Assembly: GCA_017303995.1 (NCBI GenBank)
Contig: JAFLBE010000047.1
Span: 1 to 34,363 of the forward strand
Source: Bacteroidota bacterium
GTDB lineage: Bacteria; Bacteroidota; JABWAT01
Length of the DNA stretch: 34,363 nt
Direction of reading: 5' to 3'
Shown: one piece after another, positions 3,595 to 33,540 of the stretch
Layout: each line of letters starts with the position of its first letter
Numbering within the stretch: position 1 is the stretch's first letter
Program-made: the position numbers and the translations under genes
Notes under the pieces: generated by a model
Seen by the model: only the letters and a program-made list of their open reading frames with translations
The model's database searches: none
Told to the model about the DNA's origin: nothing

Positions 3595-3796
3595 ACCGAG
3601 CTCCTGCTCGGTTTATTAAATTTCCAATTCTTACCGACCGGGAGGTCGGTGTTACAAAACTTCATACCCCAATTTTTCTCTCCAATCCATTTCAAATTTT
3701 TCAAAATCTTGAATCCTTTCCGGAATTGATCTACATTAAGGTTTGAATCAATTTTCTTTTCAATTATCAGAAATGTAACACCGACCTCCTGTCGGT
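3595..3796. repeat. Orphan palindrome cluster with GTAACACCGA tails
   Basis: The 339-base gap between the lipocalin and the dehydrogenase holds three strong hairpins: 3595-3612 (ACCGAGC/GCTCGGT), 3633-3650 (ACCGACC/GGTCGGT) and 3780-3796 (ACCGAC/GTCGGT), each with a 4-5 nt loop. Degenerate half-copies at about 3541-3590 repeat GTATCACCGA or GTAACACCGA. The tail TGTAACACCGAC, or its complement GTCGGTGTTACA, is constant. GGTCGGTGTTACAAAAC at 3644-3660 recurs exactly at 33534-33550. No transposase lies beside this cluster, and nothing else is recognisable in the gap. Confidence 0.75.
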
Positions 3797-7405: not shown

Positions 7406-8035
7406 CGACCCCAACGGGGTCGTATGTACGGGTCTGTTCATCATTTCCTATAAACATGTCATCCCGTTGGGATGAAAATCAAACAACGGTTTTTGCTCGA
7501 CCCAGAATGGGTCGTATGTTTATAGCCTTTGCCGTAATCAAAAGACGTTCGACCCCAACGGGGTCGTATGTACGGGGTGTGTTCATCATTTCCTATAAAC
7601 ATGTCATCCCGTTGGGATGAAAAACCAGGCGCTGGATTTAGCCACTATTTTCAAATTTTAGTAAATTTGTTCGTTCATTCCCGATTGTTTACCTGAATCC
7701 TTTAACAACAAGAATTTCAATGACCCAAACGGGGTCATATGTTTATAGAATAATTGCAAATTCACGAATTTTCGACCCAGAATGGGTCGTATGTTTATAA
7801 CCTTGATGAAATCAAAAGACGTTCGACCCCAACGGGGTCGTATGTACGGGTGTGTTCATCATTTCCTATAAACATGTCATCCCGTTGGGATGAAGAACTA
7901 TCAACGGTTTTGCTCGACCCAGAATGGGTCGTATGTTTTTAGCCATAACGAAATCAAAAGACATACGACCCCAACGAGGTCGTATGTCTGGTTTGTTTAT
8001 CTGTTTCCCTATAAACATGCCATCCCGATGGGATG
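7406..8035. repeat. Array of twelve REP-like hairpins upstream of RAYT 1
   Basis: This fills the 680-base gap before the transposase. Hairpins of type A (CGACCCC-AAC-GGGGTCG) lie at 7406-7422, 7550-7566, 7824-7840 and 7966-7982 (one mismatch). Type B (CATCCC-GTT-GGGATG) lies at 7460-7474, 7605-7619, 7878-7892 and 8021-8035 (GAT loop). Type C (CGACCCA-GAA-TGGGTCG) lies at 7498-7514, 7773-7789 and 7915-7931, and a degenerate copy at 7721-7737. A and B form a fixed pair joined by GTATGTACGG...CTATAAACATGT; C is followed by GTATGTTTATAG. A-hairpin spacing is 144, 274 and 142 bases, so the array grew by tandem duplication of a unit of about 140 bases. Open frames inside it are by-products of the repeats. 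Confidence 0.92.
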
Positions 8036-8064
8036 AAAAACTTAAAAACAAATATCCATTTCCT

Positions 8065-8523
8065 ATGTCAACTTATTCCCAAATTTATATTCATATCGTA
8101 TTCGCTGTAAAGGGAAGAGAAAACCTGATCAAACCAGATTGGGAAGAACAACTTTTTAAATACATAACAGGTATTGTTCAGAATAAGGGTCAGAAAATGC
8201 TCGCTATTAACGGTATTCCTGACCACATCCATTTTTTAATCGAACTGAAACCAAATTGTAACTTATCCGATTTGGTGCGGGAAATAAAAAAATCATCTAA
8301 CGTTTTCATTAATGAAAATCACTTTACCAGATTCAATTTTTCATGGCAGGAAGGTTTTGGAGCATTTTCATACAGCTATTCTCAAATTGATGATGTTTGT
8401 AAATACATATTAAATCAAAAAGATCATCATAGAAAAAGAACATTCCGGGAAGAATACATTGATTTACTAAATAAATTTAAAATTGAATTCAATGAGCACT
8501 ATTTATTTGATTGGATTGAATAA
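8065..8523 (+). CDS. IS200-like Y1 transposase, REP-associated (RAYT 1)
   Basis: This 152-residue single-domain HUH/Y1 transposase cleaves and joins single-stranded DNA at hairpin-containing sites. The HUH metal motif is H54-I-H56 in GIPDHIHFLIEL. The catalytic tyrosine is predicted to be Y114 in CKYILNQKDHH, with Q118 completing the YIxxQ signature. The start is ATG 8065 (MSTYSQIYIHIVFAVKG); the frame extends upstream only through repeat DNA. It lies 30 bases after the last hairpin of the adjacent array, which would form its leader. All key residues are intact. No TnpB partner gene is present. It is homologous to the gene at 28485-28949. Confidence 0.93.
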   Translation: MSTYSQIYIHIVFAVKGRENLIKPDWEEQLFKYITGIVQNKGQKMLAINGIPDHIHFLIELKPNCNLSDLVREIKKSSNVFINENHFTRFNFSWQEGFGAFSYSYSQIDDVCKYILNQKDHHRKRTFREEYIDLLNKFKIEFNEHYLFDWIE

Positions 8524-28271: not shown

Positions 28272-28302
28272 TTCGAGCACAAATTTGGTGTAAAAATCTA
28301 TT

Positions 28303-28473
28303 CCGCTCCTCCGGAGCGGGAGAACGTTGTTGGTGGCATTTTTCTACCAATATGTGGCTCCGCTGGAGCCAATTGCCTACGGATATTTATTGTTTTGTTT
28401 TCGCACCAGAGGTGCGAAATATTGGTAGAAAACAACAACTACAAAAAATTCAATTACCGCACCAGCGGTGCGG
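28303..28473. repeat. Left four-hairpin block flanking RAYT 2
   Basis: Four hairpins occur in order: 28303-28319 (CCGCTCC-TCC-GGAGCGG), 28355-28371 (TGGCTCC-GCT-GGAGCCA), 28401-28417 (TCGCACC-AGA-GGTGCGA) and 28457-28473 (CCGCACC-AGC-GGTGCGG). TTTCTACCAATAT at 28341-28353 and its complement ATATTGGTAGAAA at 28419-28431 bracket the two middle hairpins, giving a large inverted structure. The block ends about 12 bases from the transposase stop codon. Confidence 0.9.
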
Positions 28474-28484
28474 AATGTGATTTT

Positions 28485-28949
28485 CTAATCTTCAAAAAAT
28501 TCGAAAGCATATTTGGTGTCATATTCAATATCAAATGTTTTCAAAAACGATAAATATTCTTCCCGGAATGAATGTTTCTTGTGATGATCTTCCTGATTGT
28601 TTATATAACGGATAACAGTATCACGTTGTGAACGGCCGTATGAAAAAGCCCCATATCCTTCCTGCCATGAGAATTTGAATTTTGATGGAAATTTACTGTT
28701 GATGAAAAGAGTAGAATCTGATTTTAAATCCCTAACCAGATCACTCAGACAAATCGTAGGGGTCATTCCGAAAAATAAATGAATGTGGTTGGTTGTCCCG
28801 TTTATTGCCAGTAATTTTTGACCTTTTTTTGCCAGAATACCCGATAAATATTTGTATAATTCATCCCTGAATTCCGGACGAATTGATGATTCCCGGTTCC
28901 TGACAGCAAAAATCACCTGAATGGAAATTTGTGAATAAGTATCAGCCAT
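28485..28949 (-). CDS. IS200-like Y1 transposase, REP-associated (RAYT 2)
   Basis: This is a 154-residue HUH/Y1 transposase on the - strand. The HUH motif is H55-I-H57 in GTTNHIHLFFG, and the predicted catalytic tyrosine is Y115 in IRYINNQEDHH with Q119. SWQEGYGAFSYGRSQRD and HSFREEYLSFL are shared almost word for word with RAYT 1, showing common descent, although the two have diverged elsewhere. All key residues are present. It is flanked on both sides by matching four-hairpin blocks and lies between a reductase and the glucanase gene. There is no TnpB partner. Confidence 0.93.
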   Translation of the reverse strand: MADTYSQISIQVIFAVRNRESSIRPEFRDELYKYLSGILAKKGQKLLAINGTTNHIHLFFGMTPTICLSDLVRDLKSDSTLFINSKFPSKFKFSWQEGYGAFSYGRSQRDTVIRYINNQEDHHKKHSFREEYLSFLKTFDIEYDTKYAFEFFED

Positions 28950-29112
28950 TAGGCCTTCCTTTAATGATTCAATTGGAAATAGGTTAGGGGTTTTTCCCCG
29001 AGATCAGAAACAAATATCTGACATTCACCCGAAAAAATAAATTGATTGCATCACCTGAGGTTGATTTTTTAACAAAAATTGGGTTCACAAATGGTTTTAA
29101 ACAGAATCTATT

Positions 29113-29281
29113 CCGCTCCTCCGGAGCGGGTGTAATGTTGTGGATATGGCTATTTTCTACCACTATTTGGCTCCTCTGGAGCCAAATTCATGCAAAATTA
29201 GCGTTTTTTCCTCACCCCAACGGGGTGACATATTGGTAGAAACACAACCACAAACAATTCACCAACCGCACCAGAGGTGCG
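29113..29281. repeat. Right four-hairpin block flanking RAYT 2
   Basis: This block has the same order and orientation as 28303-28473. Hairpins lie at 29113-29129 (identical to the first left hairpin), 29168-29184 (TGGCTCC-TCT-GGAGCCA), 29212-29228 (TCACCCC-AAC-GGGGTGA) and 29267-29281 (CGCACC-AGA-GGTGCG). Start offsets are 0, 55, 99 and 154, against 0, 52, 98 and 154 on the left. ATATTGGTAGAAA follows the third hairpin (29230-29242), and AAATGTGATTT follows the fourth. The 468 bases between RAYT 2 and the glucanase otherwise hold only the putative glucanase promoter. Confidence 0.9.
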
Positions 29282-29329
29282 AAATGTGATTTGCATTCTC
29301 CTCCCCCAAAAAACCTGCCTGCACTCAAC

Positions 29330-32800: not shown

Positions 32801-32891
32801 GTTTATTGAGGTTGAATATTCTACCAAGATTTCACCCTTTTAACCCGCGACCATAGGTCTTGGGCGCTGGGGTTTCAAAATGCATTTTTCC

Positions 32892-33540
32892 TCACCACAG
32901 CGTGGTGATATGTTTGTAGCCCCGGGTAAAACCCGGGGAAAAGTATCCAAAAACATAATCCGCACGGCCACAGCTCTTCATTATTTCAATGCCCTTGTTC
33001 CGTGCGGAAAATAGCCAAACAGACGGGTGTATTCCGCCCGCACGAGGTTATCATTTCATATTGGGATTTGTAGCCGGGCGGGTTGGGTTCATGGGTTTCT
33101 GTTTTCTATAAACATTTCACCCCGTTGGGGTGAGGAACAAACAACGACAATTTCGTTATTGGTAATTTGGCTCCAGCAGAGCAGAATATTGGTAGAAAAA
33201 CAATCCTCAACAAAAATAAACCGCTCCAGAGGAGCGGATTAAACATGAATATCAATCCAATTGGCGAAACCAACATTCCGCACCTCTGGTGTGGTAATCC
33301 CTTTATTGGTTATGTTTTCTACCAATATTTCACCCCGCCGGGGTGAGTTGGGTTGTGTGTTGTTCTTACCACCGGGTTTCCACCCGGGGCTATTCATATA
33401 CCACCCCGTTGGGGTGAGGAACATATCCAATCCTGTATTTCACCAACAAATTGTATTTATCCTGATTATCCCGAATATCCCTGTACGAAGGACCCGCGCT
33501 TTAGCTTGGGTTAAAATACAAATACCGACAAGAGGTCGGT
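32892..33540. repeat. Mixed orphan hairpin array in a gene-free kilobase
   Basis: The 1030-base gap after the glucanase holds at least nine palindromes: 32892-32908 (TCACCAC/GTGGTGA), 32920-32938 (CCCCGGGT/ACCCGGGG), 33117-33133 and 33402-33416 (CACCCC-GTT-GGGGTG), 33221-33237 (CCGCTCC/GGAGCGG), 33278-33294 (one mismatch), 33331-33345 (CACCCC-GCC-GGGGTG), 33372-33387 (CCGGGT/ACCCGG) and 33524-33540 (ACCGAC/GTCGGT). A decayed copy lies at 33168-33185. Tails of all three types occur: CTATAAACAT (33106-33115), ATATTGGTAGAAA (33186-33198, inverted at 33316-33328) and GTGTTACAAAAC (33539-33550). Long-loop arms lie at 32960-33007 and 33034-33081. Open frames here are repeat by-products. Confidence 0.88.

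Follow-up and report, generated by a model that had tools for sequence, protein, structure and literature searches.

A Subclass 1.2 Y1 Transposase Gene Between Palindromic Hairpin Blocks in a Bacteroidota Genome and a Candidate Partner Repeat Beside Its Relatives

Organization of the RAYT 2 Locus

The analyzed window is a stretch of 34,363 nt (Bacteroidota bacterium, GenBank assembly GCA_017303995.1, contig JAFLBE010000047.1), which makes up a complete contig of a draft genome of 4.3 Mb, designated here as G000; the congeners (sister species) are designated as G001 and G002. A transposase gene (28485–28949, minus strand) was located between two blocks of four hairpins each (28303–28473 and 29113–29281). 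The following features were distinguished, where R is a tag followed by a 6–7 bp stem with a 3-nt loop, and C is a hairpin with a CCGCnCC stem followed by AAT:

28295..28483, no strand: left palindromic block C'R/R'C (repeat comparison, hairpin scan, fold)
28303..28319, minus: C hairpin, T subtype (H1, left block)
28337..28373, plus: R element, TTTTCTACCAATAT tag and GGCTCC hairpin (H2, left block; hairpin 28355–28371; model R1, 51.6 bits)
28399..28435, minus: R element, CGCACC stem (H3, left block; hairpin 28399–28419; model R1, 52.8 bits)
28457..28473, plus: C hairpin, A subtype (H4, left block)
28485..28949, minus: Y1/HuH transposase gene, 154 aa (RAYT 2), TnpA_Y1 subclass 1.2 type (Pfam, NCBIfam, 2xm3, motif alignment)
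29105..29292, no strand: right palindromic block C'R/R'C (repeat comparison, hairpin scan, fold)
29113..29129, minus: C hairpin, T subtype (H1, right block)
29150..29186, plus: R element, GGCTCC stem (H2, right block; hairpin 29165–29187; model R1, 51.6 bits)
29210..29246, minus: R element, CACCCC stem (H3, right block; hairpin 29212–29228; model R1, 50.7 bits)
29267..29281, plus: C hairpin, A subtype (H4, right block)

The left and right blocks matched over their full length (identity = 78%, E-value = 1 × 10−33). The 26-nt junction AATCTATTCCGCTCCTCCGGAGCGGG was identical in both, as the junction words listed in a sequence-only reading of this DNA had indicated, and the remaining common stretches were 73–87% identical. 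The hairpin offsets given in that reading (0/52/98/154 and 0/55/99/154) were reproduced when counted by stem cores, and the change of the hairpin-3 stem (GCACC/GGTGC versus CACCCC/GGGGTG) with retention of its tail proved to be real. In both blocks, H3–H4 was the reverse complement of H1–H2 in layout and in unpaired tails, and the tail TTTTCTACCAATAT after H1 paired with ATATTGGTAGAAAA after H3 (inverted repeats, fold). Thus, each block consists of two-hairpin units arranged as a palindrome, C'R/R'C, and the flanks, previously described as directly repeated with their symmetry overlooked, are both directly repeated and inverted. Since the R and C parts were ordered R'C/C'R elsewhere, the arrays simply alternate. 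Folded as single-stranded DNA, the blocks had energies of −44.5 and −42.2 kcal/mol, whereas shuffled sequences had −21.5 and −19.6 kcal/mol (z = −7.9 and −6.5, respectively); consequently, the block structure is not due to chance. No Rfam family matched the hairpin blocks, and the search found only an unrelated DUF805 RNA (RF03081; 20016–20084, score above the Rfam gathering threshold).

The Transposase

The RAYT 2 product matched the Pfam Y1_Tnp family (1.4 × 10−25) and exceeded the NCBIfam IS200 cut-off (NF033573, 71.5 bits versus 55), whereas it had no match to REP_Tyr_transpos (NF047646), for which RAYT 1, the other transposase of the window, had 33 bits against a cut-off of 80. The catalytic residues were intact: the HuH motif NHIH, the WQ motif, and Tyr115 within YINNQEDHH were identified, and the catalytic His pair and Tyr aligned with those of the solved transposase 2xm3 (E-value = 3 × 10−12). 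Relative to the DH[IV]H motif of subclass 1.2, RAYT 2 carried the variant NHIH and RAYT 1 carried DHIH. Filed by its Y---Q--HH motif, which differs from Y---NP, RAYT 2 is a subclass 1.2 enzyme and not a class-2 RAYT, and the name given to it in the sequence-only reading fails in the strict sense. A second copy of RAYT 2 was not found in the genome.

The Repeat Unit and Its Stems

Among 42 R elements of three species, which had been chosen as hairpins, stem covariation was 0.496 versus 0.163 in shuffled data, and both-sided changes were found in six of the seven stem pairs. Selection by tag alone, added as a second test, revealed a hairpin of at least 6 bp after 37 of 57 tags versus 0.4% in shuffles; several of the remaining tags belonged to degraded copies. 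R elements of the GGCTCC type (GGCTCA and AGCTCC variants included) were paired with a CCGCTCC C hairpin in 17/17 cases, whereas only one of the 21 other pairs had a CCGCT C hairpin (p = 6 × 10−10). The R–C pair, with a tag-to-hairpin spacing of 22–28 nt, behaves as the unit. Free swapping of stems was ruled out by this linkage of R and C subtypes, so that only part of the earlier idea of a scaffold with interchangeable stems was retained, namely, compensatory substitutions in the stems with a constant tag.

Copies and Arrays in the Genome and Its Congeners

Model R1, trained on G000–G002 only, detected 65, 21, and 44 R copies in G000, G001, and G002, respectively, and had no match in seven other genomes; these copy counts rest on model searches. 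The 65 copies of G000 formed roughly 42 clusters (counted from the match table). Five of them, in two clusters, had a Y1 gene at a distance of at most 1 kb (four at RAYT 2 and a weak one near C65), whereas the other 60 were more than 1 kb away from any such gene. The distance of most arrays from Y1 genes is one of the observations that, according to the sequence-only reading, would refute a composite unit. Seven Y1 genes were present in G000, of which six, divergent in sequence, had the subclass 1.2 motif and one (C49) a class-2-like motif, and a flanking array was missing at four of the six subclass 1.2 genes. Two further arrays were found in the window:

7406..8523, plus: second system of the same layout, a subclass 1.2 gene (RAYT 1) preceded on its 5' side by a hairpin array that carries the CTATAAACAT tag
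33099..33348 (33117–33416 in the G002 comparison): hairpin array of the R family with no transposase beside it (R1 matches at 33099, 33166, and 33312)

The RAYT 1 gene occupies approximately 8071–8523, and the ORF start listed at 7924 is probably too far upstream; the R element adjoining this gene was oriented opposite to the canonical direction. Another hairpin family, ACCGACC...GGTCGGT with GTAAC/GTTAC flanks, was observed at 3595–3796 and 33524–33540 of the window; its large arrays surround the class-2-like Y1 gene (motif ending in ENP) at G000:C49 (L007) and probably represent a separate REPtron. A long interrupted hairpin, TTCACCCTTTTAACCCGCGACC...GGTC...TGGGGTTTCAAA, preceded by an R tag, was conserved in all three species (window 32819–32910; L034 6866–8810; L039 5467).

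Three Y1 gene pairs of G000 and G002 were syntenic (RAYT 1, C1/C29, and C35/C21), so that such genes mostly stay in place by inheritance while the arrays beside them grow and change. The RAYT 1 array was several hairpins longer in G000 than in G002, the gene-less C87/C1 array differed between the species by roughly one four-hairpin unit (~234 bp), and most of the gene-less array at 33117–33416 was absent at the orthologous place in G002.

RAYT 2 is the exception in this respect. Genome G002 keeps both neighbors of the RAYT 2 segment, RibD-C-like on the left and a GH81 protein on the right (identity 87–89%), and between them carries an antiporter-like gene (so called by inspection of its sequence alone), with no block and no transposase; homology breaks off close to the segment on both sides, ~30 bp from its left and ~5 bp from its right edge. 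The same genome keeps CTACC arrays among its R copies without a RAYT 2-type gene. In G001, the single Y1 gene is 88% identical to RAYT 2 and has 11 of the 21 R copies within 1.1 kb, but it has different neighbors, shares only the gene core 28468–29048 at the DNA level, and stands in reversed phase, with R and R' on its sides where the G000 gene has C and C'.

These data bear on the earlier proposal that the block–RAYT–block segment of ~1 kb transposes whole as a composite unit with the four-hairpin blocks as its ends. The sandwich itself is real, its blocks and gene are jointly absent in G002 with breakpoints close to its edges, and the G001 homologue lies at a different place; however, no clean empty site was found in the related genomes, as the G002 site holds the antiporter-like gene and that of G001 is not syntenic. 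Moreover, the segment is present in a single copy, most arrays contain no gene, and the gene–array phase is reversed in G001, with homology limited to the core, so that the composite explanation is only partly supported and is considered unlikely.

Several other arrangements were observed in the course of this comparison. An array-edge segment (window 32878–33122, corresponding to L025 1988–2242) was present on two G000 contigs and once in G002, which suggests rearrangement between arrays. In G002, a subclass 1.2 gene was flanked on both sides by the identical 25-nt hairpin GAACATAGGGTGCAGCCCTATGTTC without a tag (L021 1271–1998, G002:C15), and another lay between long arrays of yet another multi-hairpin unit (L023 1018–2396, G002:C35). 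Hairpins AGAGACGGGTCT were found around a Y1 gene with an NNNP motif (L024, G002:C14; L029 126–150) and were also dispersed.

Tag and Hairpin Beside Relatives in Other Genera

The comparison included 80 relatives, which were the best tblastn matches and not a random sample; one of them was G001 and was excluded from the tag and model counts (79 loci). These loci were mostly on MAG contigs, and some of the phylum labels may be binning errors. The density of hairpins (G001 included) decreased from 1.5–2.5 per kb in the 300 bp beside the gene to ~0.1–0.5 per kb beyond 1.5–2 kb, with shuffled values at or below ~0.3 per kb throughout. Model R1 matched 19 of the 79 loci, and in 18 of these the nearest match was no more than 600 bp from the Y1 gene, whereas only 22% of non-gene bases were within this distance. 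From these matches, a wider tag was derived, about [TA]CTA[CT][CAT]A[AC]NA[TG], followed by a hairpin. The corresponding expression, tuned, unlike model R1, on loci that were later counted, gave 56 matches at up to 600 bp from the gene and 17 at greater distances (0.62 versus 0.052 per kb, ~12-fold), and 14 of the 17 distant matches belonged to one locus, L087. Matches were present in 32 of the 79 loci (0.1 expected in shuffles), and the strict motif was missing near the gene in the other 47 (~60%).

The position of the tag was also regular. In a count that also admitted G before CTA, upstream copies clustered 46–79 nt from the start and downstream copies 47–78 nt from the stop, and in 30 of the 34 copies within 80 nt of the gene, on both sides, the tag was on the side of the gene and the hairpin pointed away from it. 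Such close copies lay mostly about 50–65 nt away. On the transposase tree, tag variants required 9 changes versus a shuffled mean of 17.2 (0/200 as low); near-copies inflate this clustering, but the CTATA clade spans several families. RAYT 1 belonged to the CTATA clade and RAYT 2 was grouped with a CTACC sister; each transposase of the window carries the tag variant that its clade predicts. The tag and hairpin beside relatives across several phyla point to an enzyme-and-repeat partnership of which no earlier description was found in the open-access literature.

The RAYT 2 locus can be read against this architecture. The R element of H3 in the left block (28399..28435) has its tag toward the gene, 57 nt beyond the stop-codon side, which is the canonical position; the R element of H2 in the right block (29150..29186) likewise has its tag inward and lies 208 nt from the start codon, on the upstream side. 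Given this downstream distance and the right orientation of the upstream R, the core unit is best read as R'C-gene-C'R:

28399..29187: putative minimal unit R'C-gene-C'R, inverted dimers with tags facing the gene (from the local anatomy and the canonical architecture in other genera)

The outer dimers, 28303–28371 and 29212–29281, are then best read as extra copies, one inverted dimer per side.

An explanation that attributes the spread of the arrays to homologous recombination and to slippage of replication at palindromes, with the transposase as a bystander, agrees with the differences of gene-less arrays by whole units between species and with the array-edge DNA that is doubled in G000 and single in G002, and array growth as such could be plain recombination; but it does not predict tags with hairpins that are ~12 times as dense next to subclass 1.2 genes in several phyla, keep a fixed orientation and distance, and co-vary with the enzyme tree, and it is judged less probable still than composite transposition. 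A role of the hairpins as ordinary elements at the RNA level (terminators or stabilizers of mRNA) for the gene or its neighbors is very improbable, because, although they are GC-rich, intergenic, and in some cases located just 3' of genes, they match no Rfam family and their tags are conserved on either strand, upstream and downstream, with one variant per enzyme clade.

Proposed Mode of Action

The preferred reading, to which we assign a probability of roughly 0.7, is a system like REPtrons and BIMEs: a Y1 transposase of subclass 1.2 would work in trans on the tagged hairpins that belong to it. Y1 enzymes of IS200/IS605 and TnpA_REP bind single-stranded hairpins and cleave nearby (PMC6006769, PMC8266576). 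For the present enzyme, we infer binding, nicking at the tag, dimer action, and mobilization as follows. The enzyme would bind single-stranded R, namely, the 11-nt tag (~YCTAYMAAYAK) and then the short GC-rich hairpin, probably as a dimer on an inverted R pair; by analogy with IS200/IS605 and TnpA_REP, a pair joined through complementary tags may form the site for this dimer. The enzyme would introduce a nick close to the tag and then join the strands again, with CTA(C/T), 6–8 nt from the hairpin foot, as a candidate cleavage or guide site. Through such nicking and rejoining, R–C pairs would be spread, inverted, and multiplied in trans, giving intergenic arrays. The gene would be retained beside an inverted R pair (here R'C-gene-C'R), and a further inverted pair gained at each end would give the two palindromic blocks. 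Because a tag and a hairpin, and not the stem sequence, would be kept, stems could drift by paired changes. Against this reading stand the 47/79 loci without the strict motif, the 4/6 array-less genes, the opposite phase in G001, the reversed R at RAYT 1, and the gene-less CTACC arrays of G002.

When subclass 1.2 was separated in 2018, it was placed near IS200 transposases but credited with neither IS properties nor REP partners (PMC6006769), which left it without a known substrate. The tag and hairpin, conserved and constant in place and orientation, are a concrete candidate for this substrate. With such a substrate, transposase domestication accompanied by dispersed hairpin repeats would have arisen beyond the RAYT class as well, and the short GC-rich hairpin arrays in intergenic DNA of Bacteroidota would be accounted for. 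A broader proposal, toward which we lean only slightly, is that subclass 1.2 owns a third large REP-like superfamily beside GTAG and CGTC, with the tag YCTAYMAAYAK by a hairpin, in Bacteroidota, Ignavibacteria, and Acidobacteriota/Verrucomicrobiota/Planctomycetota MAGs, where each clade would read its own variant. No earlier report of a partnership between a subclass 1.2 enzyme and a repeat was found in the open-access literature, and the papers listed in a search with the tag letters were unrelated.

Comparison with Known Systems

In REPtrons, a RAYT/TnpA_REP gene lies between inverted REPs, which are also dispersed as alternating tandem arrays (PMC3116915, PMC3733652). The present system resembles REPtrons and BIMEs in that inverted hairpin repeats flank a single-copy Y1 gene and also occur dispersed, in alternating tandem clusters; however, its enzyme belongs to class 1, subclass 1.2, and not to class 2, and its unit contains two different hairpins, R and C. 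Neither GTAG nor GTGG adjoins the hairpin foot on its 5' side: the tag CTAC lies 6–8 nt 5' of the foot, with CTAY before and RTAG after the hairpin, whereas GTAG of REPs lies 0–2 nt 5'. As in REPINs and BIMEs, inverted hairpin-repeat pairs were found that are extragenic, dispersed, and tandemly clustered, and, as in REPINs, two inverted repeat–tag units form one large hairpin and are spread without the gene; in contrast to REPINs, the repeat is an R + C hairpin pair, and both its sequence and the enzyme class are different.

With TIRtrons/TIRYT (PMC3733652), the system shares a Y1 gene between inverted repeats that are not GTAG REPs, but TIRYT proteins form another group, and some of their repeats share the motif GGGGWSAS. 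The fold, the HuH and Tyr residues, and hairpins near both ends are common to TnpA of IS200/IS605; unlike those elements, whose left and right hairpins are single and lie on one strand, the ends here are symmetric and inverted, and dispersed arrays occur in place of a high copy number of near-identical elements. With TnpA_Y1 of subclass 1.2, RAYT 2 shares Y---Q--HH, WQ, a length of ~150 aa, a low copy number, and occurrence in Bacteroidota. The published description of subclass 1.2 gives Y---Q--HH, a low copy number, the absence of REPs, and, in general, a lack of terminal structures (PMC6006769), whereas REP-like repeats and terminal structures are present here; the published trait is a reported absence and not a defining residue.
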